Of a stretch of DNA of 64,000 nucleotides, positions 7,813 through 22,997 are shown piece by piece. The notes under the pieces were generated by a model. That model was not told the DNA's origin. It made no database searches and saw only the letters and a list, made by a program, of their open reading frames with translations. The stretch's first letter is position 1, and each line of letters starts with the position of its first letter. Source of the stretch: Rubrivirga marina (lineage in GTDB: Bacteria > Bacteroidota > Rhodothermia > Rhodothermales > Rubricoccaceae). Made by a program: the position numbers and the translations under genes. The DNA lies in NCBI RefSeq assembly GCF_002283365.1, contig NZ_MQWD01000001.1:3483951-3547950 (forward strand), given 5' to 3'.

Positions 7813-8499
7813 ATGCGGATCGCCCTCGTCCTGCTCGTCCTCGCTGCGGCCCCCGCCGTCGCCCAGCCCTCCGCGACATCGGTCGTCGAGGCGTGGCGGA
7901 CCGACTGGCGGCGATCCGCACAGGGCCTGGCCGGAATCGACGTGCGCGAGGAGGCCGAATGGACGATCGACGGGCCGAGGGGCCGGACGGTCGTCGAAGC
8001 CGACGGGCGGATCCGCTACTCCCGAGGGATACCCGAGCGCGACCTCGACCGGGTCCTCGTGAATGGGCGCGAGGTGCCGGCGGACCGCGGCCGCGGCCAG
8101 GGGCAGCGCTGGCAACGCGCGTTCGGTCCCGCCGGGCGCGAGGTCCACGCCCCACCGCTCCTCCCCCTCGCCCTGCTCGGCACGGCGGAGCCCGACCGGA
8201 TCGAGGCCGACCGCGAGGCCGGCGTCGCCGCGTGGCGCGTCGGGTTCGACTCGCCGGCCGGCCGCGCCGAGGCGTGGTTCACGCGGTCCGGCGCCCCCCA
8301 CCTGCTCCGTGTTCGGACGGAGGGCGAGCGTCCCCGTGGCGGGCGGTTCATGCGCGACGTGCGGTACGCCCGCGTCCGCGGTCTCGACCTACCCGTTCGA
8401 GCCGAGGCCACGTTCACCGTCCGCCAGCGGCGCCGGCTCCGGGACTACCTCGTGACCCTCCGCGCCGACGCGACCTACACCGGCCACACCCTCCGCTAG
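7813..8499 (+). CDS. secreted protein of unknown function
   Basis: 228 residues with a signal peptide (MRIALVLLVLAAAPAVAQ). The mature part alternates short beta-strand-like segments (AEWTIDGPRGRTVVEADGR, AEAWFTRSGAPHLLRVR, VRAEATFTVRQRRRLRDYLV), reminiscent of LolA-like or outer-membrane lipoprotein-sorting folds, but no diagnostic motif is seen, so the fold remains a guess. ATG 7813 follows the pyrimidine-rich leader CCTCCCCCCTCCCC. Stop 8499 is 3 nt before the DUF1800 gene, so the three genes to 11511 probably form one operon. Confidence 0.72.
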   Translation: MRIALVLLVLAAAPAVAQPSATSVVEAWRTDWRRSAQGLAGIDVREEAEWTIDGPRGRTVVEADGRIRYSRGIPERDLDRVLVNGREVPADRGRGQGQRWQRAFGPAGREVHAPPLLPLALLGTAEPDRIEADREAGVAAWRVGFDSPAGRAEAWFTRSGAPHLLRVRTEGERPRGGRFMRDVRYARVRGLDLPVRAEATFTVRQRRRLRDYLVTLRADATYTGHTLR

Positions 8500-8502
8500 C
8501 CC

Positions 8503-10251
8503 ATGCGCCGCGCGCCCGCCCCGCTTCCGTACGCCGAGGCCGGCCTCCCCGACGAGGCCGCCGCCGCGCACGCGCTGAACCGGCTCGCGTTCGGACCGCG
8601 GCCCGGTGAGGCCGCCGAGGTCGCCCGCCGCGGCGTCGGGGCGTGGATCGACGAGCAGTTGACCCCGCCCGCCTCGGATCCCGACTCGGACCCGCGGCTC
8701 GCCGACCTCGACCAGCTCGGGTGGACGACCGAGGAGATCACGTCGCGCTACCTCACGCCGGCGTTCGCGCTCCGCCAGGCCGTCGCCGAGGGCGCCGTCC
8801 CGGACGGCTTCGGCCCGCGCGACCCCGAGATCCGCGACCGGCTGCAGGGGTGGATGGAGCGGAACGACATCCGGAGCGTCGCCGACCTTCGGCGCGACCT
8901 GCTCCGGGCCAAGCTCACGCGCGCCGTCCACGCGCGCGCGCAGCTCCGTGAGGTCCTCACCGACTTCTGGTACAACCACTTCAACGTCGACGGCCGGGGC
9001 GGGCAGATCCTCTACGTCCCGACCTACGAGCGCGACGCGATCCGGGCGCACGTCTTCGGCCGGTTCCGCGAGCTCCTCGGGGCCACGGCCCGCCACCCGG
9101 CGATGCTGACGTACCTCGACAACTGGCAGTCGCGCGCGCCGTCGGGTACGGCCGTCACGTTCGGCCGACCGCCCGGGCGGGGCGGGATCAACGAGAACTA
9201 CGGCCGCGAACTCCTCGAGCTCCACACCCTGGGCGTCGACGGCGGCTACTCGCAGGACGACGTGATCGCCACGGCGCGCGCGTTCACGGGGTGGTCCGTC
9301 GTCCCGAATCGCAACGAGGCCTCGACCGAGCGAGTGGAGGCCGGGCTCGACCGGCTCGCGTCACGCGGGGCGCCGGTCGTCCGCGACGGCCTGTTCGTGT
9401 TCCGGCCGAACTGGCACGACGCCGAGCCCAAGACGGTCCTCGGGCGGTCCCTCCCGGGCGGGCGTGGGATCGAGGACGGCGAGGACGTGCTCGACCTGCT
9501 CGCGGCGCACGAGGCGACCGCCCGGCACGTCGCCCGCAAGCTGGCCATCCGGTTCGTCGACGACGACCCCGACGAGGGGCTCGTCGGCCGGCTGGCGGCG
9601 GTCTTCCGCCGGACCGACGGCGACCTCACTGCCGTCTTGCGGGCGCTGGTAGAAGACCGCGCCTTCTGGGACGCCGCGCGCTCCGGCCCCGACGGCGCGC
9701 CGTCGAAGGTCAAGACGCCGTTCGAGTTCGTCGCCAGCGCCGCGCGGGCAACGGCTACGCCGATCGAGGACGTCCGCGGGGTCCTCGGCCCGCTTCGCGA
9801 CATGGGCGAGCCGCCCTACCACGCCGAGCCGCCGACCGGTTTCCCGGACCACGCCGCCGCGTGGGTCAACGCCGGCCTGCTCCTGACCCGGATGAACCTC
9901 GGCCTCCGACTCGCCGACGGCCGCGTCCGCGGGGCCCGACCTGACCTGGCCGTGCTGACGGCCGGCCGCGAGCCCGAGTCCATCGACGCCGCGCTCCAGA
10001 CCTACGTCGGCGCCCTCCTCCCCGGGCGCGACCCGACCCCGACGGTCACGCTGCTCCAGCCGATCGTCCGCGAACCTGCCTTCGCCCGGCGCGTCGCCGA
10101 GGCGGCCACCCAGGCCGAGGCCGAGACGCCGGTCGCCCTTGACGACGACGGCGTGTTCGGCGAGACCCCCGAGCCACCGTTCGACCCCGACGACACGGCG
10201 GCCTTCGTCGTCGGGGTCGTCCTCGGCTCGCCCGCCTTCCAGCGGCAGTAG
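8503..10251 (+). CDS. DUF1800 family protein
   Basis: 582-residue protein recognised as DUF1800 by the N-terminal HALNRLAFGPRPGE, FWYNHFNVDG, NENYGRELLELHTLG and the YSQDDVIATARAFTGW block, and by the NWHDAEPKTVLG / ARHVARKLAIRFV region. These proteins are almost always encoded next to a DUF1501 protein, as here; their biochemical role is not established. No clear signal peptide is visible at the chosen ATG 8503, although the partner is a Tat substrate. A second, more divergent DUF1800 gene is at 61804-63450. Confidence 0.9.
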   Translation: MRRAPAPLPYAEAGLPDEAAAAHALNRLAFGPRPGEAAEVARRGVGAWIDEQLTPPASDPDSDPRLADLDQLGWTTEEITSRYLTPAFALRQAVAEGAVPDGFGPRDPEIRDRLQGWMERNDIRSVADLRRDLLRAKLTRAVHARAQLREVLTDFWYNHFNVDGRGGQILYVPTYERDAIRAHVFGRFRELLGATARHPAMLTYLDNWQSRAPSGTAVTFGRPPGRGGINENYGRELLELHTLGVDGGYSQDDVIATARAFTGWSVVPNRNEASTERVEAGLDRLASRGAPVVRDGLFVFRPNWHDAEPKTVLGRSLPGGRGIEDGEDVLDLLAAHEATARHVARKLAIRFVDDDPDEGLVGRLAAVFRRTDGDLTAVLRALVEDRAFWDAARSGPDGAPSKVKTPFEFVASAARATATPIEDVRGVLGPLRDMGEPPYHAEPPTGFPDHAAAWVNAGLLLTRMNLGLRLADGRVRGARPDLAVLTAGREPESIDAALQTYVGALLPGRDPTPTVTLLQPIVREPAFARRVAEAATQAEAETPVALDDDGVFGETPEPPFDPDDTAAFVVGVVLGSPAFQRQ

Positions 10252-10269
10252 CCCCACCACCCCGTCGCC

Positions 10270-11511
10270 ATGACCTCCCGTCGCGCCTTCCTCTCCTCGG
10301 GCGGCCTCGCCCTGCTCGCTGCCGGCGTCGGCGGCGTCCCCTCGTTCCTGACCCGGGCCGCCTCGGCGACGCCGTCCGGGTCCTTCCGCCGACGGAAGGT
10401 GCTGGTGACCGTCTTCCAGCGCGGGGCGATGGACGGCCTCGCGGCGGTCCAGCCGCTGTCGGACCCGATGCTGGCCCGGCTCCGCCCGACGCTGGCCCTC
10501 GACGCCCGCCGCCAGCTCGTCGACCTCGACGGCCGGTTCGGCCTTCACCCCTCGCTGAGACCGTTCGGAGACTATTTCCGGGAGGGGACGCTCGGCATCG
10601 TCCACGGCGTCGGCTCGCCGGTCGCGACGCGGTCGCACTTTGATGCGCAGGACTTTATGGAGACCGGCCGCCCCGGCGACAAGCGTGCCGACTCCGGCTG
10701 GCTCAACCGCGCGACGGGCCTTCTCGGCCATGAGCCGTCGACGCCGTTCCAGGCCGTCGCCCTGACGCCCGCGCTCCCGCTCTCCCTGCGGGGCGAGGCG
10801 CCGGCGCTTGCGATCGCCAACCTCGAGGACTTTGGGGTGATGGCGCCCGGCGCGATGGCGGCGACGGGCGAGAGCCTGGAGGCGCTCTACGCCCAAACCG
10901 CCGGCGACCTGCTTAGCAGCGCGGGACGAGAAGGACTCGAGGCCGCGAACGTGCTCGACCAGGCCCGGCTCGACCAATACCGCCCCGAGAACGGCGCCGA
11001 CTACCCCCGCTCGGAGCTCGGCGAGAGCCTCCGCCAGATCGCCCAGCTCATCAAGGCCGACGTCGGGCTCCAGGTCGCGTTCGCCGAGGCCGGCGGGTGG
11101 GACACGCACGCGCGCCAGGGCGCCGCGGACGGCTCGTTCGCTCGCCGCGCCGCCGACCTCGCCCAGAGCGTCGCCGCCTTCTGGACCGACCTCGAACGCT
11201 ACCAGGACGACGTCGTGGTCCTGACGATGACCGAGTTCGGCCGGACCGTCGCCGAGAACGGGACGGGCGGGACCGACCACGGCCGGGCCTCCGCCATGTT
11301 CGTCCTCGGCAACGCCGTCCGTGGCGGCGAGGTGCACGGCGCGCCCCTCGTGCTCGATCCCGACGCTCTAGAGGACGGCCGCGACCTGCCCGTCACGACC
11401 GACTTCCGGGCGCTCTTCGCCGGCGTCGCCGGCCCGCACCTCGGGATCGCGACCGGCGACGGGCTGTTCCCGGGCTGGGCCGGCCGGCCGCTCGACGTCC
11501 TGCGCAGCTAG
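10270..11511 (+). CDS. DUF1501 family protein, Tat-exported
   Basis: 413 residues with a twin-arginine signal (TSRRAFLSSGGLALLAAGVG; Ala-rich end near residue 33). DUF1501 proteins resemble the alkaline-phosphatase/sulfatase superfamily; conserved segments here are TVFQRGAMDGLAAVQPLSD, GIVHGVGSP, RSHFDAQDFMETG, GGWDTHARQG and VLTMTEFGRTVAENG with TDHG. Predicted to fold in the cytoplasm and be exported with, or after, the DUF1800 partner 18 bp upstream. Substrate unknown. A palindrome at 11515-11532 follows the stop. Confidence 0.9.
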   Translation: MTSRRAFLSSGGLALLAAGVGGVPSFLTRAASATPSGSFRRRKVLVTVFQRGAMDGLAAVQPLSDPMLARLRPTLALDARRQLVDLDGRFGLHPSLRPFGDYFREGTLGIVHGVGSPVATRSHFDAQDFMETGRPGDKRADSGWLNRATGLLGHEPSTPFQAVALTPALPLSLRGEAPALAIANLEDFGVMAPGAMAATGESLEALYAQTAGDLLSSAGREGLEAANVLDQARLDQYRPENGADYPRSELGESLRQIAQLIKADVGLQVAFAEAGGWDTHARQGAADGSFARRAADLAQSVAAFWTDLERYQDDVVVLTMTEFGRTVAENGTGGTDHGRASAMFVLGNAVRGGEVHGAPLVLDPDALEDGRDLPVTTDFRALFAGVAGPHLGIATGDGLFPGWAGRPLDVLRS

Positions 11512-11514
11512 GCG

Positions 11515-11532
11515 CGCCTCGGCGCCGAGGCG
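11515..11532. terminator. perfect palindrome between convergent genes
   Basis: CGCCTCGGCGCCGAGGCG, a perfect 18-bp palindrome 3 bp after the DUF1501 stop and before the convergent hisI stop (11564). Position fits a bidirectional terminator. No T-run follows. The same palindrome recurs at many gene ends in this window. Confidence 0.55.
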
Positions 11533-11563
11533 GGACCGGACGGCTCCCTCTGGAGGGCGCCGG

Positions 11564-11953
11564 CTACTTGTAGACCGAGTCGGCGTCGAAGACCGGCTCG
11601 CCGACCGTTTCGAGCTCGCCGTCCTCGACCTTCCGGTAGAAGCAGCTCCGGTGGCCCGTGTGGCACGCCGCCCCGCCGACCTGCTCGATCCGGAACAGGA
11701 GCGCGTCGCCGTCGCAATCCACGTAGGCCGACTTGACGCGCTGGACGTTCCCGCTCGTCTCGCCCTTGACCCAGACCTTCTGGCGCGACCGGCTCCAGTA
11801 CGTCATGACGCCGGTCTCGAGCGTCTGCTGAAGCGTCTCGCGGTTCATGTAGGCGAGCATGAGCACGTCGCCGGTGGCGTCGTCCTGGGCGATGGCGGCG
11901 ACGAGGCCGTCGTCGTTGAAGGTGGCGGCGTCGAGGAGCGGCTGGAGGTCCAT
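11564..11953 (-). CDS. hisI: phosphoribosyl-AMP cyclohydrolase
   Basis: Third step of histidine synthesis: hydrolytic opening of the adenine ring of PR-AMP; a Zn/Mg enzyme. 129 residues, the stand-alone form without a fused HisE pyrophosphatase. Family hallmarks: [33 protein letters not shown], the metal-binding [14 protein letters not shown], and the two zinc-site Cys in [15 protein letters not shown] 11953 is chosen since an upstream extension to 12160 has no family similarity and is Arg-rich antisense-like sequence. No other his gene lies nearby. Confidence 0.96.
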
Positions 11954-12080
11954 CGGAAGAGAGCGGGAGCGAATGGTGGACCCGAAGGTGCGCCGTGCGC
12001 GCCCGTTCCGGGGAGGAAAACGCGGGAAGGTCCCGTCTGGCGGCGTTCTTTCCGGGCGCCCCTGAGCTCTCCCCCACCCC

Positions 12081-12746
12081 ATGCGCGCTTCGTTCGTCTC
12101 GCTTCTCCTCGCCCTCACGGCCTGCCAATCGGACCCCGAGGTCGAGGCGCTGCCGTCCACCCCCGAGATCCCGGCCTACGCGGGCGACCTCTCTCCGATC
12201 GACGAAGGGACCGCCGTCCCGGGCTTCGCTGCGTTCCGCGACACGCTCCGCGGAGTCGTCGCCCGCCGTGACACGGCCGCGCTGCTCGGCCTCGTCGCGA
12301 CCGACGCTCGGCTCTCGTTCGGCGACGGTGCGGGCGGCCCCGACGAGTTCGACCAGACGTGGTTCGCGTCGACTCCGGAGGAGCCCGTGTGGTCGGTCCT
12401 CGAGCACGTCCTCGACCACGGGAGCGTCGAGGAGGACGGCGCGGTCGTCGTCCCCTACGTCGCGGGGTTCTGGCCGGACACGCTCGACCCCTACACCACC
12501 GTCGTCGTCCCCGGCCGCGACGTCCCGGCCTACGACCGGCCCGACGGCACGGAGGTCGCCCGGCTCACGGAGATCGCCCTCCCGACGATGGCGCCCGACG
12601 ACGACGGCTGGCGGCCCGTCACCCTGCCCGACGGGACCGGCGCGGTCGTCGAGGCGGACGCGGCCCTCAGCCCGGTCGGCTACCGCGCCACGTTCTGGGA
12701 CGACGGCGACGGCTGGCGACTCCGCTCGTTCCTCGCTGGCGACTGA
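12081..12746 (+). CDS. hypothetical lipoprotein
   Basis: 221 residues with a lipoprotein signal ([15 protein letters not shown], Cys at 15) and an acidic mature protein. The C-terminal half (residues about 120-215: [49 protein letters not shown]) resembles bacterial SH3-like envelope modules; this is a weak visual similarity. ATG 12081 follows a CTCTCCCCCACCCC leader. It is divergent from hisI with 127 bp between the starts. Followed by a palindrome at 12753-12772. Confidence 0.75.
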
Positions 12747-12752
12747 CCCCGG

Positions 12753-12772
12753 CCGCCTCGACGCCGAGGCGG
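12753..12772. terminator. palindrome after lipoprotein gene
   Basis: CCGCCTCG and CGAGGCGG (8-bp arms, loop ACGC) start 6 bp after the lipoprotein stop. Same family as the palindrome at 11515-11532. Candidate terminator without a T-run. Confidence 0.5.
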
Positions 12773-12807
12773 GCACGGCGGCATGGGGTCGGAGGCCTGT
12801 GGGCCCG

Positions 12808-12912
12808 GCCGCTCCGACGAGCGCGACGACCCGCTCGAGACCTAGACTTCCGCCTCGACCGTGTCACCCATCGTCCCGGTCTGGAGTGTTATCACTCGTC
12901 CCGGCCGCTACA
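12808..12912 (+). mobile_element. decayed right end of an IS481-family element
   Basis: This 105-bp stretch aligns with the right end of the intact element (16580-16685): it encodes GRSDERDDPLET-stop in place of GRFDERDYQLKT-stop, then keeps the double inverted-repeat motif (CACCCATCGTCCCGGTCT followed by CACTCGTCCCGGCCGCTACA). Similarity disappears to the left, so the rest of the copy has been deleted. The outer TACA end is at 12909-12912 and supplies the stop codon of the neighbouring decarboxylase gene on the minus strand. Confidence 0.85.
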
Positions 12913-14467
12913 CGACGACAACGGGTGCGGCGGCTGCGGCCGTGCCCGTCTCTCTGTCGATGTCGTGCCCGAGCCGGCGGAGGTCGTCGAACACCCGTTC
13001 GATGTCTTCCAGCCTCGTTCGGTGGGAGCAGATGGAGAGTCGAAGGACGGTGCGGCCGCGGAGCTGCGAGGTCATCACGAAGGCCAACCCGCTGGCCCGG
13101 ATCGCGTCGGTGATCGCCTGGTTGAGGCGGTCGAGGTACTCGCTGTGCGCGTCGACGTCGTCGCGGAGCCGGGCCGGGACGAACCGGAAGCAGTAGAGGT
13201 TGAGGACCGGCGCGTGGAGCGGCTCGAAGTCGGGGTCGGCGCGGACGAGGGCGTCGAGGTGCTCGGCGCAGCGGACGTTCTGACGGAGGAGCGCCCGGTA
13301 CCCCTCGGCCCCGTAGTGCTTCAGCGTCATCCACACCTTGAGCGCCCGGAACCCCCGCGACATCTGGGGGCCGAGCTCGTAGAAGTCGTGCCCGTGGTAG
13401 CCGTCGGGGAGGATCCCCTGGAGGTACGACGCCTCCATCGTGAACGCGCGCCGCTGCGTCACGGGGTCGCGGAAGAGGACGCACCCGCACTCGTACGGGA
13501 CGTAGAGCCATTTATGCGGGTCGAGCGAGACGGAGTCCGCCCGATCCAGCCCGGCGTAGAGCAGCCGTTTCTCGGGGAGCATGGCCCCGACGGCCCCGCA
13601 GGCCCCGTCGCCGTGTAACCACAGCCCGTACTCCCGGCACACGTCGGCGATCTCGTCGAGGGGGTCGATGGCGCCGACGTTGACGGAGCCGACCTGGGCG
13701 ACGACGCAGAACGGGAGGTCGCCACGAGCACGGTCCTCCTCGATCATCCCTCGGAGCGCGCCCACATCCATCGTAAAGTCGCCCCGGCTGGGGACGCGGC
13801 GGAGCGCCTCACGGCCGAGGTTCAGCATGTCCACGGCCCGGACGAGCGAGACGTGGCCCTCGTGGTCGGAGGCGTAAACGAGGAAGCGGCCGGTGCGGGC
13901 CTCGTCCTGGAGCCCGCGCGGGGTGGTGTCGTAGGGGGCCGCGTTACGGAGGGCCGTGTGGAGCGCGGTGACGTTGGCCATCGTGCCGCCGCTGACGAGG
14001 ACGCCGCCGCACGCGGGGTCGAACCCGATCAACTCAGCGAGCCACGCGAGCGTGCGCCGCTCGACCTCGGTGGCGGACGGGGCCGGCTTCCAGCCCCCGG
14101 CGTTCATGTTGACCGACGCCGCGAGGGCCTCGGCGAGGATGCCCATCGGGGTTCCGGACCCCATGACGTACCCGAAGTAGCGCGGGGAGGTGTTGTGGGT
14201 GGCGTTCGGGAGGACCTTCTCGTCCCAGTCGTCGAGGATGCGCGCGGGTTCCTGGCCGTGTTTGGGAAGAGGTTCGTCGAAGGTGCGCGCTACTTCTTCC
14301 GGTGTTCGTCCCGCGAAGACAGGCAGGTCAGGGACGTCGCGGAGGTGGTTGGCGATGGCGTCGATGACTCGGTAACCGAGCGCGCGGAAGTCTTCGGGGG
14401 CGAGGTCGCCGTCGAACCACGCTTCGGCGACGGGCTCATCTAAGGGAGGAGGCTCAGGCATGTTCAT
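12908..14467 (-). CDS. PLP-dependent (group II, aromatic-L-amino-acid type) decarboxylase
   Basis: Predicted amino-acid decarboxylase (PF00282). 519 residues with TPEEVARTFDEPLPKHG, FGYVMGSGTPMGILAEALA, the cofactor-stacking VSGGTMANVTAL, HGDGACGAVG containing the PLP-binding Asp, and the Schiff-base Lys in SLDPHKWLYVPYECGC. Substrate (Trp, Tyr, DOPA or another) cannot be read from sequence. ATG 14467 or the second ATG 14461 starts it. The tail ends in an odd Ala/Val run and the stop TAG is formed by the end of an IS remnant, so the last few codons are not original. Its start lies 24 bp from an attC site; it may be a third cassette or the adjoining chromosomal gene. Confidence 0.92.
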   Translation of the reverse strand: MNMPEPPPLDEPVAEAWFDGDLAPEDFRALGYRVIDAIANHLRDVPDLPVFAGRTPEEVARTFDEPLPKHGQEPARILDDWDEKVLPNATHNTSPRYFGYVMGSGTPMGILAEALAASVNMNAGGWKPAPSATEVERRTLAWLAELIGFDPACGGVLVSGGTMANVTALHTALRNAAPYDTTPRGLQDEARTGRFLVYASDHEGHVSLVRAVDMLNLGREALRRVPSRGDFTMDVGALRGMIEEDRARGDLPFCVVAQVGSVNVGAIDPLDEIADVCREYGLWLHGDGACGAVGAMLPEKRLLYAGLDRADSVSLDPHKWLYVPYECGCVLFRDPVTQRRAFTMEASYLQGILPDGYHGHDFYELGPQMSRGFRALKVWMTLKHYGAEGYRALLRQNVRCAEHLDALVRADPDFEPLHAPVLNLYCFRFVPARLRDDVDAHSEYLDRLNQAITDAIRASGLAFVMTSQLRGRTVLRLSICSHRTRLEDIERVFDDLRRLGHDIDRETGTAAAAAPVVVV

Positions 14468-14490
14468 GGAAGCAACAGAGAGCTTGGCCG

Positions 14491-14618
14491 CCTAGACGCT
14501 TGGCGATTCAGCCGCCGCGAGTGATGGCACGACGGTCAGACGAAGCTATGACGGCTGTGCCGCACGGACGAGCCGAGGACGCTGGCACTCGCGGTCGGCC
14601 TGCAAACGCTAGTTATGT
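14491..14618 (-). other. integron attC site downstream of the lipoprotein cassette
   Basis: Read on the minus strand: R'' box CCACATAAC (14618 side), L'' GTTTGCAGGCCGACC, a long imperfect stem, L' GGCGGCTGAATCGCC and a right end AAGCG-TCTAGGC. The arms CACTCGCGG and CCGCGAGTG are a perfect 9-bp continuation of the stem; extra G bases on the L'' arm correspond to the extrahelical bases of attC sites. R'' is complementary to the first bases of its own cassette (GTTATGTG at 15238-15245), as the cassette model demands. The core triplet is GTC, one change from GTT. Length 128 bp. Confidence 0.85.
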
Positions 14619-14625
14619 GGCCCCC

Positions 14626-15228
14626 TCAATCGGAGGGCCGCGACCGTACGCGGTCGTTCATCGAGTCGAAGTGGGAGTCCACACCGACGGCGAGTAGGCT
14701 GTCGTTGCGGAGCCAGAAGGCGATCCGCCCCCCTCCGGTCGTGTCGTCGACGAACACCTCCGTGTCGTACGGCAGGTAGGAGAGGTTGGCCGCGAGCGGC
14801 CAGTTCCGGCACCGCCACGACTCCGGGAAGGCCCGCTCGACTTTGGAAGCCGGGTCCCCGGCCTCGAACACCTGAGGACCGGCCGCCAGCGGCCCGAGGC
14901 GGAGCGGGTACCAACCGGGGTAGGCGAGCGAGTCGCGGACCGTGGTGAACCCGAGCGTGTCGGCCTCGACGGCGAAGACCATGACGCCGAACACGTCGGT
15001 CCAGACCAACTCTTGATACGACGTGTCCGGCGCTCCAAACTGAGCCCGGAGCTGCTCCGGAGTAGACCAGAGCGGCAAGTCGCCGACCGTCCACCCGTCG
15101 GTCTCCACAACGCTGTAGAAGTCCCCTCCGCTGTCGTAGACATCAGAGCAGGCGGCTCGGCGCTCGGCTTCCGACATCCCGCCGCAGCCCACGATGAGGA
15201 GGAATGGGAGGGTCAGAAGCTGCCTCAT
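14626..15228 (-). CDS. cassette-borne lipoprotein, unknown function
   Basis: 200 residues with a lipoprotein signal MRQLLTLPFLLIVGC (Cys 15). The mature protein has Tyr/Trp/Asp-rich stretches (WTVGDLPLWSTPEQLRAQFG, LPYDTEVFVDDTTGGG, FWLRNDSLLAVGVDSHFDS) and Cys pairs; no family recognised. A GTG at 15240 would add four residues but overlaps the attC site upstream, so ATG 15228 is preferred. The stop lies 8 bp before the R'' box of attC 14491-14618, and the start 11 bp after attC 15239-15363: exactly the compact layout of an integron gene cassette. No promoter is visible; cassette genes often depend on outside promoters. Confidence 0.85.
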   Translation of the reverse strand: MRQLLTLPFLLIVGCGGMSEAERRAACSDVYDSGGDFYSVVETDGWTVGDLPLWSTPEQLRAQFGAPDTSYQELVWTDVFGVMVFAVEADTLGFTTVRDSLAYPGWYPLRLGPLAAGPQVFEAGDPASKVERAFPESWRCRNWPLAANLSYLPYDTEVFVDDTTGGGRIAFWLRNDSLLAVGVDSHFDSMNDRVRSRPSD

Positions 15229-15238
15229 CGCAGGGGAC

Positions 15239-15363
15239 ACATAACGATTTGCGATTCAGCCGCCGCACGCGGCGCGGCGACGGGACGGAGCGGAGGATAC
15301 GTCGACGCTCACGCGAGGCGAGAGCGCTGGCGCGTGGGGTCGGCCTGCAAGCGCTGGTTAGCT
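15239..15363 (-). other. integron attC site between the two cassettes
   Basis: Minus-strand reading: R'' GGCAGCTAAC (15366-15357), L'' GCGCTTGCAGGCCGACC, long stem, L' GCGGCTGAATCGC, then AAATCG-TTATGTG with core GTT at 15245-15243. It matches the 14491-14618 site in both ends (GGCTGAATCGC and TTTGCAGGCCGACC / CTTGCAGGCCGACC) but not in the loop, the usual attC pattern. R'' is an exact 10-bp complement of GTTAGCTGCC at 17076-17067, the first bases of its cassette, across 1.7 kb. Overall form follows the classical 59-base-element (TAAC...TTCAAGCCGAC...GCGGCTTAAC...GTTA). Confidence 0.88.
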
Positions 15364-15371
15364 GCCCGTGC

Positions 15372-15421
15372 TGTATGGACCGGGACGAGTGGTAACAGAA
15401 TAGACCGGGACGATGGGTGAC
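15372..15421 (+). repeat. left terminal inverted repeat of the IS481 element
   Basis: TGTA end followed by two CCGGGACGA-GGTRAC motifs (from 15380 and 15405). The 42 bp from 15380 match the reverse complement of 16636-16677 with about five mismatches. Confidence 0.88.
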
Positions 15422-15470
15422 AGATCCGTTCACCCCGGCATGGCCCTCCCCGCGCTCTCGCGCTCACGCC

Positions 15471-16618
15471 GTGCCCTGGACCGTCACCGCCCCCATGCTC
15501 CAACGAGCCCACCTCGTCGCCCTCCACGCCGAGGGCCTCCACTCCGTCGCCGACCTCGCCGCCCGGTTCGGCGTCTCCCGCAAGACGGCCTACAAGTGGA
15601 TCGACCGGCACGCCGAGGGCGGCACCGACGCGCTGGGAGACCGGTCCACGTCGCACGGGGCCACCCGCACACGACCCCGCCAGAGGTCGAGGCCCTCGTC
15701 GTGGCGGCGCGGGAGAAGCACCCGACGTGGGGGGCGCGGAAGCTCATCCCCTGGATCGCTAAACGACACCCGGACGCGCCTTTGCCTGCGGCCTCGACGG
15801 TCGGCACCATCCTCAAGCGACACGGGCTCGTCGAGCCGCGACGCCGTCGGCGCGTGGCGGCCCACCCGGGGAGCCGCCCGCTCGTCGCCGACGCGCCATG
15901 TGACGTGTGGACGGCCGACTACAAGGGGCAGTTCAGGACCGGCGACGGCGAGGTGTGCTACCCGCTCACCGTCTGCGACGCGCACAGCCGGGCCATCCTC
16001 TGCTGCGAAGGCCACTCCTCCGTCGAGCAGTACGGGGCGCTCCGGGCGTTCGACCGCCTCTTCCGCGAGCACGGGCTGCCGACGGCGATCCGGACCGACA
16101 ACGGGACCCCGTTCGCGACGCAGGCGATCTGTGGCCTGTCACGACTCAGCGTGTGGTGGATCAAGCTCGGGATCACGCCCGACCGGATCGAGCCCGGGCG
16201 CCCCCAGCAGAACGGACAACACGAGCGGATGCACCGGACCCTGAAAGCGGAGACGGCACGCCCACCGGAGGCCGACATGGCCGCGCAGCAACGACGCTTC
16301 GACGCGTGGCGGGCCGAGTTCAACGACGAGCGGCCCCACGACGGCCTCGGCGGTGAGACCCCCGCCTCCCGCTACGCCCCGTCGCCGCGCCCGATGCCCG
16401 AGCGTCCGCCCGAGCCGGAGTACCCGGGGCACTTCGAGGTCCGGCGCGTCTCGCGGTGTGGGACGTTCAAGATGAAGGGCCGCCAGCGTTTCCTGAGCCA
16501 GGCCCTGTCCGACGAGACGATCGGGTTCGAGGAAGTGGCCGACGGGGTCTGGGCCGTGCTCTTCTACGAGACCGAGCTCGGCCGCTTCGACGAGCGGGAC
16601 TACCAGCTCAAGACCTAG
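15471..16618 (+). pseudogene. IS481-family transposase, frameshifted
   Basis: DDE integrase-core transposase. Frame one starts at GTG 15471 (VPWTVTAPMLQRAHLVALH) and contains the helix-turn-helix SVADLAARFGVSRKTAYKW; it loses family similarity near 15650. From about 15655-15680 the family sequence continues in the -1 frame (TTPPEVEALVVAAREKHPTW) through DVWTADYKGQF, RTDNGTPF and GRPQQNGQHERMHRTLKAE, which hold the three acidic residues, to the stop at 16618. A one-base loss or a recoding event would explain it; no clear slippery heptamer is seen, so I call it a broken gene. Restored length is about 382 residues. Confidence 0.85.
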
Positions 16619-16635
16619 ACTGCGACCTCGACCGG

Positions 16636-16685
16636 GTCACCCATCGTCCCGGTCTAAAGTGTTACCCATCGTCCCGGCCGCTACA
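16636..16685 (-). repeat. right terminal inverted repeat of the IS481 element
   Basis: Partner of 15372-15421, ending TACA at 16682-16685. On the minus strand its first bases read TGTAG, which places a TAG stop in the neighbouring cassette gene. Confidence 0.88.
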
Positions 16686-17052
16686 TGCTAGGGTCCGAGT
16701 CCTCGAACCACACGTTCCGCAGGCGCCGGGTGTACACCTCCGGCTCGTCCTCGAACAGATGCTCGCGGCCCTCGTCCGCCAACACTCCTGTCTCGAGGAG
16801 GGACTCGACGACGACGTCGGTCATGTCCGTGTATGTCGCCAACTCGTCCCGCGACCCCGAGGGGAACGGCCAGTCGTCGTACGTGTCGCTGACGAACGCG
16901 ACGGCGTCGCCCGCGTGGTCCTGGAGGTAGCGCGTCGTGATCGCCGCGGCGACCGGGTTGCCGGCCAACTCGTTCCGGGTCCCAGCGCCGATGTGGGCGA
17001 ACGAGACGACCTCGCGCTTCGAGTGGTTGACGAGTCGGTAGAGGGCGCCCAT
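16681..17052 (-). CDS. cassette-borne protein of unknown function, 3' end altered by IS
   Basis: 123 residues, no signal peptide or membrane segment, acidic, no recognised family; seen segments are SFAHIGAGTRNELAGNPV, RYLQDHAGDAVAFVSDTYD and EVYTRRLRNVWFEDSDPSM. ATG 17052 lies 15 bp after the cassette junction (GTTAGCTGCC, 17076-17067). The stop TAG belongs to the IS end. Removing the IS and one TGC copy restores ...DPSTGS and a TAA at 15360-15358, inside the R'' box of the following attC site, which is where many cassette genes stop. The original protein was therefore about 125 residues and probably remains functional. Confidence 0.75.
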   Translation of the reverse strand: MGALYRLVNHSKREVVSFAHIGAGTRNELAGNPVAAAITTRYLQDHAGDAVAFVSDTYDDWPFPSGSRDELATYTDMTDVVVESLLETGVLADEGREHLFEDEPEVYTRRLRNVWFEDSDPSM

Positions 17053-17246
17053 GGGTAGGCACGGAGGGCAGCTAACCAGGAGTTATGAGGCCGGGAAGAT
17101 GCGGCCGTCGGCCGGATAGTACGCAGACGTGAGGAGACACGACCGGGCCGTAACCCCCTCCTTCAACGCGTTCCGCCCGACAACGAAGACCACACCTCAT
17201 CGCAAATGCGGCGGCCCTTCGCATAGTACCAGTCCGAGCGCCCCGC
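17053..17246. other. cassette array boundary, no gene
   Basis: 194 bp between the first cassette gene and the glycosidase stop. It holds the recombination junction (minus strand CTG-GTTAGCTGCC at 17079-17067). Minus-strand sequence just before it, CGGCCTCATAACTCCTG, resembles the right half of an attC (L' plus spacer), but I find no matching left half with TAAC, so this may be a degenerate attC or the attI-like entry site. No integrase gene is present. Confidence 0.5.
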
Positions 17247-20057
17247 TCAGGCCGGCGCCGCGACGTGCGACAGGGTCCGGTGCAGCAGGTCCGTCCGAGA
17301 GCATATCGAGGGGGCCACCACCACGATCCTGGCCCCGGACGCCTTGTTCTGCAAGAGCGCCGCGCAGGGATACCGCTCCCGCCTCGGGCCCCTCACGAGT
17401 TGGTGCTCGCGCTCGGTGAACGCCAGCGGCGTGAACGTCCACGGCTTCCGGACCGTCCAGTCGGTGTAGACGACCTCGACGCGCTGGTCGGGGTCCACGA
17501 CGCCGCCGTCGACGTCGAACACGCCGCGGCAGTCGGTCTCGAACCCGAACAGGCCGAGGCCGTGCTCCCACGCGGCGAATAGCGGGCCGTCGCCCCAGTA
17601 GACGGTCCCCTCGGGCTCCGGGTGGTCGAGGAGGTCGCCGTCACGGGGGTCGTAGTCACGCCAGTGACCGTCGGACCACACCTTCCACCAGAACAGGCCC
17701 GCGTGGCCGCCCATCTGCGCGCCGCCATGGTAGTGGTTCTCGTAGTCGATCCGGGGGAAGCGCGGGCCGAGGAGCAGCAACGAGCCGCAGTGGTCGAGGT
17801 AGTCCTCGATCATGTCCGTCACCGACCTCCCCGGCTTCGTCCGGTACGGCAGCTCATTGCCGACGATCACGAGGAGGTCGCCCTCCCCGTCGAGGTCGCC
17901 GATCTCGCGGGCCGCCACGTGGCGGAGCCGGCCGAAGTAGCTCTCGGCTGAGCGGGCGACGCTCTGGAGGCTGTCGGCGAACAGCCGCGGCTCGTCCAGG
18001 AGGAGCGGACGAGCGACGCGGGCCGGCGGCGGAAGCGGCGGCATCGCCAACTCGCCGCTCAACACCCGCTGCGGCGCGTAGGCCACTTCCAACACGTGGC
18101 GCTTGCCCGGTGTCAGGCGGATGCGGAGGGTTGCGCTCGCGCCGTCCTCCTCCGCCTCGGGCTCGATCTCGGCCCCGTCGAGCGTCACCATCTCAACTGC
18201 CTCGCGCGGCGGCACCCGGAGCTCCAGCACCTCGACGGCACACCGGTCGAGCACGATCCGGACGCCGTCGGCCGTCTCCGCAAAACGGAGTCGGCCCGCG
18301 GCGAGATCGAGGTCGACGGACCACGTGTCCCACGAGCGCGGGACGGCCGGGGCCAGTCGGATCCGCCGCTCGCCGGGCTCGCGGATGCTGAGGCCTACCA
18401 ACCCGTACTGGACCGCGTCGAGGAGCGCGCCGGAGCCGGTGATGAACGCGTGCCCGGCCACGTCGTCCTGGGCACCGTCCTCCGGTTCGAGATACTCCTC
18501 ACAGAGCCCGGGGAGCGTCGGCCGGTGGAACGTGTCGACGATCTTCGAGAGGACGTGGAGGCCGCCGTCGGCGTCGAAATTCAGGAACCGGGCCTTCGCC
18601 TCGTGAGCCATCCACCACGGCCAGACACGCCCGTTGTGGTCGTTGTCGGCCGGGACGTACCTCATCGGAAGGTCGGTGGTCACCGTCCCGAAGGGCCGCC
18701 AGGACCGCTCGCGGATCGTATCGAGGGTCCGGAACCGCTCGTTCCGGCCCGCCACCCGCTCGACGACGGCGATCGCGTTGTCGGCCAGCATGAGCGTCGT
18801 GTCGGGGACGCCCCACTGGACGGCGTTGTTGAAGTACCCGGCGTCGTTCCAGAACGCGTCGTGGATCGACCGGCGAGACCGCGCGGCGAGATCGCGGTAT
18901 CGCCCCGCGTCGTCGTCGCGGCCCAAGGCCTCGCAGATGAACGCCATGCGCCGGAGGGCGGCGAAGTACAGGACGTTCGAGTACAGCGTCCGCTGGCCCT
19001 CGACGAGGCGGAGGAACCGGCTGTGGTCCATCCACTCCGTCACGTCGACGATGAGCCCGTCTTCGTCGGCGTCGCGGGCCACCCAGACCTCGATCCACGG
19101 CTCGAAGGCGGCCACCATCCGTTCGAGCCAGTCACGGTCGCCGGTGTGCTCGTAGACGCGCCAGACCAGCGTGAGGAGCCAGCCGAGCCCCTCCGCGGAG
19201 CCTCCCTGACTCGTGTCGTCGGAGACCTTCAGGCCCGTCGGGTCGTGGGCCGTGTGGCGCGCCGCCTCGTAGTCGAGCGTGGCGAGGACGGCGTCGAGGA
19301 GGCCCGCCGCGACGCCACCGGGGCCGAAGCCGGACCCGAAGTCGCGGCTCCAGACGTCTCGCCAGCGGAAGATGTCGCAGACCATTTTCGAGCCGTCGCC
19401 GCCGGGCCGGCCGGCGCCGTCGGGCTCCCAGGCGTAGCCGAGCCGGAGGTGCGCCTTGGCGAACTCGACGGCGCGGTCGAGCTCGGGGTACGGGGTCCGA
19501 AGGCGGAGACCACGCTCGGCCGTTTCGTCCGCCCACGCCTCGACCGCCTCGAACGGGTCATCGAGACGGGCCGCCGCGGCCCCGTCGCCGAGGAGGAACG
19601 CCGCGCGCGCGTCGGCCGCCAGCGACACGCGGAGCGTCCCCCGCGCCGCGCCCTCGTCGTCCGACGAGACGGGCTGTGGCTCAGGGGTCCAGACGGAGGC
19701 CTCCCCCCTGCTGAGGTCGACCTCGTCCGCCTCGACGTCACCGTCAGGGTCGGCGTCGGCGAATTCGAGGGCCCACTCGGCGTCTGCTTCGGACTCGACG
19801 AGCAGGACCATGAGGGCGGCATCGGGCTGGGCGGCAGCCGTGAGCGCGCCCCGCCCCGCGACCTCATAGCGCACGCGCCTGGGGAGCACGACCGTCCGCA
19901 CCTCACCGTCCGAGAGGGGCCGGCCGTCGATGAGGACGCGGTAGCCGGCCGCCGGGCCGGCGAACACGAACTCGGCAGACCCGGCGCGGACGCGGGCGAT
20001 CAGCCGGCCGTTGCCGACGACGGTTTCGACGTCGTGGTCGAAGACGAGGGGGGCCAT
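17247..20057 (-). CDS. large cytoplasmic glycosidase, (alpha/alpha)6-barrel type, with extra C-terminal domain
   Basis: 936 residues, no signal peptide. An N-terminal beta-rich domain (1-about 190) precedes an (alpha/alpha)6 barrel like amylo-alpha-1,6-glucosidase or GH15/GH63 enzymes: FRWRDVWSRDFGSGFGPGG, SDDTSQGGSAEGLGWLL, TEWMDHSRFLRL, LYSNVLYFAALRRMA and NGRVWPWWMAHEAKARFLN; acidic residues in these blocks are candidate catalysts. After a beta domain, residues about 690-936 form a separate module (DLLVIVGNELPYRT, MIEDYLDHCGSLLLLGP) resembling a Rossmann or glutamine-amidotransferase-like fold. The open frame extends upstream through sod, but ATG 20057 is preferred. Substrate unknown; glycogen or oligosaccharide turnover is a guess. 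Confidence 0.72.
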   Translation of the reverse strand: MAPLVFDHDVETVVGNGRLIARVRAGSAEFVFAGPAAGYRVLIDGRPLSDGEVRTVVLPRRVRYEVAGRGALTAAAQPDAALMVLLVESEADAEWALEFADADPDGDVEADEVDLSRGEASVWTPEPQPVSSDDEGAARGTLRVSLAADARAAFLLGDGAAAARLDDPFEAVEAWADETAERGLRLRTPYPELDRAVEFAKAHLRLGYAWEPDGAGRPGGDGSKMVCDIFRWRDVWSRDFGSGFGPGGVAAGLLDAVLATLDYEAARHTAHDPTGLKVSDDTSQGGSAEGLGWLLTLVWRVYEHTGDRDWLERMVAAFEPWIEVWVARDADEDGLIVDVTEWMDHSRFLRLVEGQRTLYSNVLYFAALRRMAFICEALGRDDDAGRYRDLAARSRRSIHDAFWNDAGYFNNAVQWGVPDTTLMLADNAIAVVERVAGRNERFRTLDTIRERSWRPFGTVTTDLPMRYVPADNDHNGRVWPWWMAHEAKARFLNFDADGGLHVLSKIVDTFHRPTLPGLCEEYLEPEDGAQDDVAGHAFITGSGALLDAVQYGLVGLSIREPGERRIRLAPAVPRSWDTWSVDLDLAAGRLRFAETADGVRIVLDRCAVEVLELRVPPREAVEMVTLDGAEIEPEAEEDGASATLRIRLTPGKRHVLEVAYAPQRVLSGELAMPPLPPPARVARPLLLDEPRLFADSLQSVARSAESYFGRLRHVAAREIGDLDGEGDLLVIVGNELPYRTKPGRSVTDMIEDYLDHCGSLLLLGPRFPRIDYENHYHGGAQMGGHAGLFWWKVWSDGHWRDYDPRDGDLLDHPEPEGTVYWGDGPLFAAWEHGLGLFGFETDCRGVFDVDGGVVDPDQRVEVVYTDWTVRKPWTFTPLAFTEREHQLVRGPRRERYPCAALLQNKASGARIVVVAPSICSRTDLLHRTLSHVAAPA

Positions 20058-20091
20058 GCGAGGGGATCCGTCGAGAGGGGCCAAAAAGCTA

Positions 20092-20125
20092 CGCGCCCCG
20101 ACCGGCGGCGGCCGGTCGGGGCGCG
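20092..20125. terminator. 15-bp perfect hairpin between sod and the glycosidase gene
   Basis: CGCGCCCCGACCGGC (20092-20106) and GCCGGTCGGGGCGCG (20111-20125) are perfect arms with a 4-nt loop. It lies 54 bp after the sod stop and 35 bp before the glycosidase ATG; a TAGCTTTT box (20084-20091) abuts it. Probably a sod terminator or a transcript insulator. Confidence 0.6.
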
Positions 20126-20144
20126 GGCCCACACGTGGGCGACT

Positions 20145-20172
20145 CCCTCCACCTCGGCGCCGAGGCGGAGGG
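20145..20172. terminator. palindrome directly after sod
   Basis: CCCTCC-A-CCTCGGCGCCGAGG-C-GGAGGG, a 28-bp stem of the recurring CCTCGGCGCCGAGG family, 7 bp after the sod stop on the minus strand. Candidate terminator, followed by the second hairpin at 20092-20125. Confidence 0.6.
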
Positions 20173-20179
20173 GGCGGGG

Positions 20180-20800
20180 CTAGCCCATCTGTGCCTTGGC
20201 CTCGCGGTACCGGCGGTCCACCTCGTCCCAGTTGACGACGTTCCACCACGCCTCGACGTAGTCGGGCCGCTTGTTCTGGTACTTGAGGTAGTAGGCGTGC
20301 TCCCAGACGTCGACGCCGAGGAGGCCGACGTGGCCGTGCATCGCCGGGCTGTCCTGGTTCGGGAGCGCGTGGATGTGGAGGCCCTGCTCGGGGCCGAAGC
20401 CGAGCCACGCCCAGCCGGAGCCGAACTGCGTCTTGGCGGCTTCGCTGAACTGCTCCTTGAAGCTCTCGAAGGAGCCGAACGCCTCGTCGATCGCGCTCGC
20501 CAGCTCGCCGGTCGGCTCGCCGCCACCGCTCGGGCTCATGACGGTCCAGAAGATGCCGTGGTTGAGGAAGCCGCCGCCGTTGTTCCGCACGGCCGTCCGC
20601 TTGTCCTCGGGCAGCGCGTCGAGGTCGGCGAGCGTCTCCTCGATCGGCTGGTCTTCCCACTGCGTGCCCTCGAGGGCCGCGTTGAGCTTGGTGGTGTAGC
20701 CGGCGTGGTGCTTGCCGTGGTGGATCCGCATCGTCTGCTCGTCGATGTGCGGCTCCAGGGCGTCGTAGTCGTAGGGGAGCGGGGGAAGCTCGAAGGCCAT
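20180..20800 (-). CDS. sodA: superoxide dismutase, Fe/Mn type
   Basis: Converts superoxide to hydrogen peroxide and oxygen; cytosolic (no signal peptide). 206 residues, full length. Metal ligands: His in [14 protein letters not shown] (residues about 27-40), His in [12 protein letters not shown], and Asp/His in [20 protein letters not shown]. The C-terminal [14 protein letters not shown] is standard. The Fe/Mn preference cannot be decided with confidence; the symbol is for the family. ATG 20800 follows the C-rich leader CCCAACCCCCATCCCC. Monocistronic by its flanking hairpins and 102-bp upstream gap. Confidence 0.96.
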
Positions 20801-20902
20801 GGGGATGGGGGTTGGGAGAGAAGGTGCCTGTTCAACCCGTCGCCGCGGGCGCCGTTTCGAGGTCCACGCGCGATTCGTACCGGCGCCCCTCCCCTGCCGC
20901 CG

Positions 20903-21466
20903 TTACCCGTCGCCGAGCGCGTCGAGCATTCGCTGGCGGTCGGCCTCGGCGAGCCGGCCGAGCGCGACGAGCCGGTCGAGCGCCTCTGCCACAGCGAGGT
21001 GATCCGTGCCACCGTCCGCCGTCGGATCCGGCGCCGGGGCCTCGGGCCGTACACCCACCGCCAACACCTGCTGGAGGAACCTTTCGACGTACTCGGCCGC
21101 GCCCGGCTGGCCCGAGAAGTCGAGCGTCTCCGTGACCGTCGCCCGCGCCCGGTTCAGGTCGATCTGGACCTCCCGCCCGCCGAGCAGCTTCCGCTTCGCC
21201 CGCACGCCCACGATGTCCTCGTAGCGGATCGTCCGGGCCGGCTGGAGGTCGTTGTTTTGGAAGACGAGCCGGTCGTCGAGAAACACGGCGCCGTCCTTGG
21301 CCGAGCCGAGGCGGGTCGCGTCGTAGAGCGCGACGACCGCGTCCGGGTCCACCTCGGGCGCGTAGTCGGCGAGGGCGGCGCGGAGCTTCGCCGCCGGGAG
21401 GTCGGGCGCGACGTAGAGCCCGAGGTCGGGGGCCGTCGGGAGGTACTCGCGGAGGAGGTCGGTCAT
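20903..21466 (-). CDS. hypothetical cytoplasmic protein, PH-like domain
   Basis: 187 residues, soluble. Residues about 65-125 (GAVFLDDRLVFQNNDLQP, IRYEDIVGVRAKRKLLGG, VQIDLNRARATVTETLDF) have the strand pattern of bacterial pleckstrin-homology-like domains. The last 35 residues (AVAEALDRLVALGRLAEADR) look like a short SHOCT-type helical tail after a Pro-rich linker. No enzyme motif. It stands 49 bp downstream of nuoN, so it may be the last gene of the complex I transcript. Function unknown. Confidence 0.65.
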   Translation of the reverse strand: MTDLLREYLPTAPDLGLYVAPDLPAAKLRAALADYAPEVDPDAVVALYDATRLGSAKDGAVFLDDRLVFQNNDLQPARTIRYEDIVGVRAKRKLLGGREVQIDLNRARATVTETLDFSGQPGAAEYVERFLQQVLAVGVRPEAPAPDPTADGGTDHLAVAEALDRLVALGRLAEADRQRMLDALGDG

Positions 21467-21515
21467 GCGCGTGGGACGAGCGACGCCCCCCGCCGGGTCC
21501 CCGAGGCGGGCCGGG

Positions 21516-22997
21516 CTAGGGCGCGACCGTCGCGACCGCGTCGACGCCGAACGCCGCCGCGGTCACGTCGATGACGCCGGCCGGGAGGACGCCGAGGGCG
21601 AGGAGCGCGACGGCGCAGACGGTCACGACGACGGCCGTCGCGCGGGCGACCGGGAACTCGAGCCGGGCGTTGTCCGGCGCCTCGTCCGGCGACGTCATCC
21701 ACATCACGACGAGCACGCGGAGGTAGTAGTAGCCCGAGACGACCGAGGCGAGGACGCCCAGGATGGCCAGCCACACGAGCCCGGCGTCGACGGCGGCGGC
21801 GAACACGAGGTACTTCCCGATAAAGCCGGCGAGGGGCGGGAAGCCCGTGAGCGCGAACATGAACACGCCCATCGCCACGCCGAGGAACGGCTTGCGGTAG
21901 CCGATGCCCGCGAGGCTGTCGAGGTCCTGGCCCGCCCCCTGCTCGTCGTCCCACTCGAGCGCGCCCATCACGCCGAAGGCGCCGACGTTCATGAGCGTGT
22001 ACGCAAGGAGGTAGAACAGCGCGGCGCCGTAGCCCCCGGCCGTCCCCGCGGCGAGGCCCGCGAGGATGTAGCCCGCGTGGGCCACCGACGAGTAGGCCAG
22101 CATCCGCTTCACGTTCGACTGCACGAGCGCGACGACGTTGCCGACGACCATCGTGATCGCGGCCACGGCGGCGAGCGTGAGCTGGACCGTCCCGTCGACG
22201 AGGTCCGGCGGGAGGGCGCGCGCGAGGACGACGGCGAGCGCGGCGAACGTGGCCGCCTTCGAGGCCGTCGACATGAACGCCGTCAGCGAGGTCGGGGCGC
22301 CCTGGTACACGTCGGGCGTCCACATGTGGAACGGGACGGCGGACACCTTGAAGAAAAACCCGACGAGGAGGAGGCCGACGCCGGCGAGGAACAGGCCGGT
22401 ACGCCCGGTCGCCTCCACGCCGGCCGCGAGCTCGGCGAGCTGCATCGTGCCGGTCGCGCCGTAGAGGAGCGCGAGGCCGTAGAGGAAGAAGCCCGTCGAG
22501 AACGCGCCCAGGAGGAAGTACTTCAGCGCGCTCTCGTTCGCCGTCGACTCCTCGCGGACAAGGCCCGTCAGGACGTAGAGGCACACCGACATCGTCTCGA
22601 GGCCGACGAAGAGCGTCACGAGGCTGCCCGCCGACGCGAGCGTCATCATGCCGGCCGTGGCGAAGAGGATCAGCCCGTGGACCTCGCCGTAGTTCCGCCC
22701 GATCCGCGAGAGGTACGGGACCGTCAGGGCCACGCTCAGGATCGCGCCGATGAGCACGATGATGTTCGCCAGCGCCGCGGCGCCGCCGACGTAGACCTGC
22801 CCCTCGAAGGCCGTCCCGACGTGGTCGACCCCGAACGCCTGCCACACGGCCGCCAGCGCCATGCCGACGCCCGCGATCCACGGGATGGACGCGTCGTCGT
22901 TCCGGAACGCGTCGAGGACGACGACGAGCACGCCGAGGCCGGCCACCAGGAGGATCGGGCCGGTCGAGGCGAGGTCAGCGAGGAAGAAGTCGTACAT
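21516..22997 (-). CDS. nuoN: NADH-quinone oxidoreductase subunit N
   Basis: Antiporter-like proton-channel subunit of the complex I membrane arm; 493 residues, about 14 transmembrane helices. Family blocks: ASAGSLVTLFVGLETMSVCL with the key Glu in TM5, FFKVSAVPFHMWTPDVYQGA carrying the channel Lys, VKRMLAYSSVAHAGYIL and FMFALTGFPPLAGFIGKYLVF. Separated from nuoM by an antiporter and a pterin dehydratase gene on the same strand. ATG 22997 follows CGCTATCCCCTCTG. Confidence 0.96.
   Translation of the reverse strand: MYDFFLADLASTGPILLVAGLGVLVVVLDAFRNDDASIPWIAGVGMALAAVWQAFGVDHVGTAFEGQVYVGGAAALANIIVLIGAILSVALTVPYLSRIGRNYGEVHGLILFATAGMMTLASAGSLVTLFVGLETMSVCLYVLTGLVREESTANESALKYFLLGAFSTGFFLYGLALLYGATGTMQLAELAAGVEATGRTGLFLAGVGLLLVGFFFKVSAVPFHMWTPDVYQGAPTSLTAFMSTASKAATFAALAVVLARALPPDLVDGTVQLTLAAVAAITMVVGNVVALVQSNVKRMLAYSSVAHAGYILAGLAAGTAGGYGAALFYLLAYTLMNVGAFGVMGALEWDDEQGAGQDLDSLAGIGYRKPFLGVAMGVFMFALTGFPPLAGFIGKYLVFAAAVDAGLVWLAILGVLASVVSGYYYLRVLVVMWMTSPDEAPDNARLEFPVARATAVVVTVCAVALLALGVLPAGVIDVTAAAFGVDAVATVAP

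Follow-up and report, generated by a model that had tools for sequence, protein, structure and literature searches.

The window analyzed here, a 64,000-nucleotide stretch of the Rubrivirga marina genome (contig NZ_MQWD01000001.1; G000:C1:3483951-3547950, with G000 denoting the own genome), almost certainly carries genuine integron cassettes, arranged as a cluster of attC sites lacking an integrase (CALIN). Integron cassettes are circles that are joined at an attI site by the integron integrase (IntI) through attC × attI recombination, with the newest cassette adjoining attI. The array appears to exceed a plain CALIN, in that the DNA ahead of its first cassette resembles attI. On balance we favor the explanation that the window holds an orphan attI platform which was filled by an integrase acting from elsewhere. 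Such a platform would consist of an attI-like docking site at about 17077-17122 on the minus strand followed by cassettes, without an integrase gene; the array would comprise two cassettes with attC sites and one probable third that lost its attC. The integrase would have acted in trans from another locus, and orphan platforms may have been copied as units.

attC sites and cassettes in the window

We searched for attC sites with a covariance model, R2, built from 26 aligned attC sites of two other arrays of the same genome, SCI-1 (C1:213046-222894) and SCI-2 (C1:3003526-3021119), and including the R''-R' and L''-L' pairs. Both window sites and the homologous SCI-2 source site were kept out of the training set, which avoids circularity. 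Two sites on the minus strand were matched, the attC of cassette 1 at 15236-15366 (R'' CAGCTAAC, R' GTTATGT; 99.0 bits, E = 2.8e-24) and the attC of cassette 2 at 14487-14621 (R'' ACATAAC; 100.5 bits, E = 1.1e-24). The third-best match across the 64-kb window reached 11.9 bits (E = 0.26), and no third attC was detected there at E < 0.1. Both cassettes have an R'' complementary to their own start, the mark of an integron cassette array, over 10 bases in cassette 1 (the longest length tried) and 8 bases in cassette 2. Analysis of single-strand folds showed that neither site folds better than shuffled sequences (z = 0.31 for 15236-15366 and z = -1.06 for 14491-14623); it is thus the profile and the box pairing, and not fold energy, that support the attC sites. 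The proximal attC, that of cassette 1, is identical to the attC of the homologous SCI-2 cassette at 108 of 131 positions, loop included.

The original prediction, made without database searches, had recognized these cassettes from boxes that match over a distance, and all four boxes were found on the minus strand where it had placed them (15357-15366 against 17067-17076 and 14612-14620 against 15238-15245). Its argument that this double match is hard to obtain by chance agrees with the R2 results, which place the site pair far above chance (E of about 1e-24), and the covariance-model check that it had proposed matched both sites, with our own-genome model R2 in place of that of IntegronFinder. 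Since the locus has the at least two attC sites that define a CALIN by covariance model (again R2), and not the intI that a complete integron has, the interpretation as a CALIN was borne out in each of its parts, namely, the cassettes, the attC sites, and the absence of a local integrase. A detail of the boxes needed correction, in that the distal site had been said to end in GTTA; its R' is actually GTCTAGG and slightly degenerate.

As had also been predicted, each site follows a small gene on the attC strand. Cassette 1 (15246-17076, minus strand) starts with GTTAGCTGCC, the complement of its own R'', and carries a gene for a 123-amino-acid protein (16681-17052, minus strand); it is interrupted by an insertion sequence (IS), the end of which replaces the last codons of the gene. 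An SCI-2 cassette about 480 kb away shares 94.1% identity with cassette 1 over 392 bp. The gene of cassette 2 (14626-15240, minus strand) encodes a 204-amino-acid protein with an N terminus that is lipoprotein-like by eye. Neither protein could be assigned a function or family from Pfam, NCBIfam, or PADLOC. Further left, a gene for a pyridoxal phosphate-dependent decarboxylase (12908-14467, minus strand; Pfam PF00282, E = 4.9e-70) has its ATG about 20 bp past the distal attC and its stop codon inside the end of an IS remnant. An ortholog was not found in the other three genomes of the genus (best identity, 40%; one of these genomes is 81% complete). The decarboxylase gene is probably a third cassette that was truncated, its 3' end and any attC having been lost at the IS end. 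The array limits first proposed, 14491-17076, fall short on the left, where this probable third cassette extends the array. Searches of the window with Rfam (at gathering score) and ARAGORN gave no match and no tRNA, respectively, and Rfam likewise gave no match in loci L050, L104, L108, L009, and L011.

An attI-like sequence ahead of the first cassette

The stretch directly ahead of cassette 1, at 17077-17122 on the minus strand (GTACTATCCGG...ATAACTCCTG|G; type C), appears from its sequence to work, or to have worked, as an attI. The likeness to attI is confined to these last 46 bases; the whole leader gave just short, weak matches in G000 to G003 and thus was not copied recently from another attI there.

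To place this head among others, 22 integrase-less loci of G000, G001, G003, and G004 were surveyed, and 14 of them yielded 15 readable heads; arrays at contig ends or on short contigs (L105, L106, L109, L117, L118, L147, L148, and L149) and the arrays of G005 to G008 stood outside the survey. The head of L104 was located by motif and not by R'', so it is not independent, and those of L119 and L113 were placed by the pairing of 7 and 8 bases, respectively. Heads were compared with nine attI sites adjacent to intI, against a background of 2,500 sites sampled from the 4,641 GTT sites (counted before heads were removed) of 16 loci, some of them with arrays. Twelve of the 15 heads matched the intI-adjacent attI sites at a level reached by at most 4 of the 2,500 background sites. 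No background site did as well as the heads of L103, L113, L119, L120a, L120b, L136, L137, and L139; one did as well as L102, and four each as well as the window head, L107, and L141. Four of the twelve (L119, L120b, L136, and L137) are copies of one attI. The window head reached its highest score with the attI of G007, a match equaled by 0 of 1,000 background sites, and its match to the G004 C14 head (L143) was likewise equaled by 0 of 1,000 in a separate sample. The last 10 bases of the window head are identical to those of the heads of two G001 arrays. A pattern derived from window-type heads had four matches in 114 genomes of the order (reversed control, 0), all four of them heads of integrase-less arrays.

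Three types, A, B, and C/D, were distinguished among the nine intI-adjacent attI sites; the sorting was clear for A and partly by eye for B and C/D. Groups in a tree of the IntI proteins parallel these types (support for A, 94/94, four proteins; for B, 100/100, three proteins; for C/D, 94/90, two proteins). Of these types, C/D has the members that the window head fits most closely (G007, as above, and G003_C13, equaled by 5 of 1,000 background sites), and on this resemblance we tentatively place the putative window attI with the C/D integrase clade.

The head bears directly on the explanation that cassettes from the genome's own integrons were inserted off target, into an attG site downstream of the glycosidase gene (17247-20000) beside the array. 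Insertion at attG is a described route (available portions of PMC12901181 and PMC12444791), and SCI-2 contains a homolog of cassette 1. The head nevertheless looks nonrandom, as its last 10 bases and its matches to the G007 attI and the G004 C14 head indicate, and it resembles attI, whereas attG sites are described as diverging from both attI and attC in the accessible part of PMC12901181. The relatives speak to both sides. The glycosidase gene has orthologs in 4 of 60 genomes, namely, all four of the genus, including the own genome. G002 retains both flanks (8000-12774 and 17243-22000; 86 to 88% identity) and is without 12775-17242, and the absence of the insert there favors insertion. What G002 has in its place, however, is about 610 bp of other sequence with no attC match and no exact empty junction that could be read; the whole 4.5 kb is absent, with another stretch present, where insertion at attG had led us to expect an empty site. 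Taken together, we regard off-target insertion as improbable. The prediction of cassettes withstood the same comparison, since G002, the sole relative with both flanks, is without the whole insert and not without the attC sites alone. Beside the glycosidase gene of G003 there was no attC match, and beside that of G001 there were four, with other cassettes, on a contig that begins inside that array. In the converse case, elsewhere, a two-attC array of G001 lies between two conserved stretches that in the own genome are about 94 bp apart. The presence of arrays thus differs among species.

Integrases and the possible copying or decay of platforms

The claim that the array has no integrase held at the locus and did not hold genome-wide: the search for intI and attC that the original prediction had suggested returned two intI genes and, besides the window pair, another 37 attC sites. 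The integron integrase profile TIGR02249 matched above its cut-off at C1:223689-224648 (434 bits) and C1:3023011-3023988 (380 bits), and both genes span the whole profile without stops; in 14 control genomes, weaker matches occurred in all and none exceeded the cut-off. The own genome has one type A and one type B integrase. Measured along the contig, the nearer of the two is about 475 kb from the window array and the other about 3.3 Mb. The R2 genome scan yielded 39 sites at E ≤ 1e-6, 2 in the window and 37 elsewhere, and one more at 0.064. Lone attC-like sites away from the arrays were seen at C1:3658290-3658419 (57.4 bits, with degenerate ends) and C1:1537749-1537878 (46.1 bits). Among the nine family genomes examined, six, including the own, have IntI above the cut-off. 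R2 sites at E ≤ 1e-6 occur in seven of the eight others, and many of these sites form small clusters at a distance from IntI matches. When the contigs of relatives were searched for IntI, in a set from which the own genome or very near ones may be missing, the best among the 80 of 580 relatives listed had about 47 to 64% identity and came from many phyla.

Stretches common to SCI-1 and SCI-2 are 99.9% identical over 908 bp and 95.3% identical over 867 bp. Stretches of 94 to 99.9% identity imply that cassettes were exchanged among platforms of this genome at some time in the past, by whatever route and in whatever direction. A separate 1.57-kb repeat, which looks like a transposase element, is 97.7% alike in SCI-1 and SCI-2 (L009:6226-7792 and L011:12985-14553) and adjoins attC sites; a third copy, at L009:9946-11439, is 79% alike.

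The case for a copied attI is stronger in G004 than for the window. In that relative, the 117 bp at the head of the intI-bearing array, directly ahead of its first cassette (C1:1900738-1900854), are present in five copies, at 165, 241, 1,424, 1,901, and 2,153 kb of one 3.95-Mb contig (L119, L120, L136, L137, and L138). The 165-kb copy served as the query, and the other four were 95 to 97% identical to it. Each of the five is directly followed by a cassette with a matching R'', and intI stands beside only one. This 117-bp attI was absent from the other eight family genomes save for one 21-bp match in G008. The sequences upstream of the five copies mostly differ, but two pairs of orphans share a leader, of 251 bp (95%) in one pair and 248 bp (84%) in the other. 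Since the likeness within each pair reaches past the attI block into the leader, the four G004 orphans are more readily explained by copying of orphan platforms than by four separate losses of intI. Short hairpin repeat variants (CCTCTGGCGCCAGAGG-like) recur near several G004 heads, upstream of them in L119, L120, and L136.

In G001, two orphan arrays (L107 and L104) share 366 bp of leader at 81% identity; 21-bp tandem repeats (TCGGAGGTCTCCGATGCCATG-like) lie within this duplicated leader, up to about 365 bp upstream of the head. Directly after attI, G001 has about 97 to 115 bp that are 94% alike between a type A site with intI beside it (C4) and a type C site that lacks an integrase (C3, L104). 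The same piece, at 95%, occurs in the array next to the glycosidase gene, an array with an unreadable head, giving three platforms in all (L050, L104, and L108). Rfam gave no match for this piece. Its presence after attI sites is a further hint of action in trans.

An alternative to the orphan platform is decay, in which a complete integron lost its integrase, with the help of IS elements, and left attI and cassettes as a fossil; CALINs are read as degraded integrons in the available text of PMC9024848. The state of the array suits this account. An IS481-like element (15372-16685, plus strand; ends TGTA...TACA) lies within cassette 1 between the gene and the attC, flanked by a target duplication of 3 to 4 bp (GCA/AGCA, read by eye). 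Its transposase had its best NCBIfam match with NF033577 (IS481) at 178.9 bits, under the cut-off of 224, and it is the only full copy of the element found in the genome, other matches being shorter; the homologous SCI-2 cassette represents the uninterrupted state of cassette 1. At 12803-12912 on the plus strand, near the left border of the insert, a remnant preserves 110 bp from the right end of an IS of this type (86% identity), and another remnant lies at C1:212402-212499, at the far end of SCI-1, on the same strand as the first. The IS481-like element and the remnant at the left border damage the array. Given the IS in cassette 1, the degenerate last R', and the absence of the integrase clade that best matches its attI, the window copy is probably close to inactive now.

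Further results weigh against an orphan platform, some of them by favoring decay. The C/D integrase clade is known from two relatives, G007 and G003, and was not found in the own genome, so the window array is possibly a relic; either the A or B integrase may serve the window attI or, alternatively, its own integrase may have been lost. The window head also resembles a type B attI, G003_C7 (equaled by 2 of 1,000 background sites), and its match to the intI-adjacent attI sites as a whole is modest (score of 10, at the level of 4 in 2,500). Eight of the 22 surveyed loci had unreadable heads (L050, L114, L115, L112, L111, L116, L042, and L140), and three of the 15 readable heads were weaker, being equaled by 35 (L143), 68 (L104), and 102 (L110) of 2,500 background sites. 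When the nine true attI sites were left out one at a time, only six were recovered by the same test, which is thus insensitive for rare attI types. The pattern found in 114 genomes was made from the same heads, and its result shows specificity and not independent discovery. In G004, nine alignment columns (CGAGTGCGG) about 250 bp upstream are common to all five attI copies and, in the copy that has intI beside it, lie within the intI frame, and the G004 orphans may hold a very short intI remnant. These nine columns, together with the tentative nature of the C/D assignment, weaken the explanation that we favor and raise that of decay.

Against decay, the upstream regions of the orphan heads gave no sign of a former integrase. 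Ten IntI proteins were used as tblastn queries on 4.6 to 5 kb upstream of 14 orphan heads, the window head included, and no remnant was detected, very short ones being missed by such a search; nothing scored better than E = 1e-4, and the places and frames were scattered, while three intI-bearing controls scored as expected. A stricter IntI search of 16 loci, again including the window (E = 1e-3), revealed no remnant either. With the shared leaders of the G004 orphans added to this, we consider decay of a complete integron rather unlikely as the origin of the window array, and an orphan platform filled in trans remains the explanation that we prefer.

The IS remnants raise a further alternative, namely, that recombination between IS copies severed a piece of an array from its integrase and carried it to this locus. 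Such a rearrangement would use IS sequences of one type, and these do occur at three places, namely, within cassette 1, near the left border, and at the far end of SCI-1. The right border, however, has an attI-like head of its own that is unlike the heads of SCI-1 and SCI-2, and the cassette copy of SCI-2 is still in place and 6% diverged. We regard this rearrangement as highly improbable.

Extended to the whole family, copying and action in trans would amount to a distributed integron, in which attI multiplies without intI across the chromosomes and one or two distant integrases fill many arrays in trans. We advance this idea tentatively, as possible and short of our preferred account of the window itself. 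With its five-copy attI, G004 offers a direct test of the idea and prompts one to ask what copies attI.

Comparison with known systems

Like a CALIN, the window array has at least two attC sites and cassettes, no intI nearby, and a small size (two to three cassettes); it differs in being headed by an attI-like site. According to the available part of PMC9024848, IntegronFinder detects no attI outside class 1 integrons, and the CALINs that it reports are for this reason unsorted by whether an attI heads them. The same source gives 2,961 CALINs and 2,760 complete integrons in a large survey, making the two about equally common. As far as the accessible texts go, three origins have been proposed for CALINs (off-target insertion, loss of intI, and rearrangement; PMC8618304), CALINs can be mobilized in trans (PMC12444791), and a CALIN has been found in a genome without intI (PMC7923331). 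In the open-licence literature, judged by titles and abstract openings, we found no paper on dispersed or orphan attI sites. If the idea of a distributed integron is true, CALINs would serve a single system as functioning outposts, and this origin would join, as a fourth, the three given in the available part of PMC8618304. If many CALINs keep an attI, one integrase would feed several sites, and cassette capture would not be bound to one locus.

The locus resembles a sedentary chromosomal integron in its attI-like head, its attC sites of the same family, its shared cassette, and its order on one strand, and differs from one in the absence of intI, the few cassettes, and integrases that are about 475 kb and about 3.3 Mb off. 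With cassettes inserted at attG sites, for which PMC12901181 and PMC12444791 cite Loot 2024, it has in common that the cassettes lie away from an integron in an IntI-bearing genome; the difference is that the insertion point in the window resembles, by sequence, an attI and not a nonclassical site. A complete integron of the Bacteroidetes, where few are known, is that of Salinibacter ruber M1 (accessible part of PMC9024848), which we liken to the present case by its description and not by sequence. Finally, the CALINs of Xanthomonas at conserved loci other than ilvD are, in the available text of PMC12444791, likewise small integrase-less arrays at few chromosomal places, with intI possibly elsewhere. 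That text describes no attI copies for them, whereas in the relative G004 the attI itself has been multiplied.

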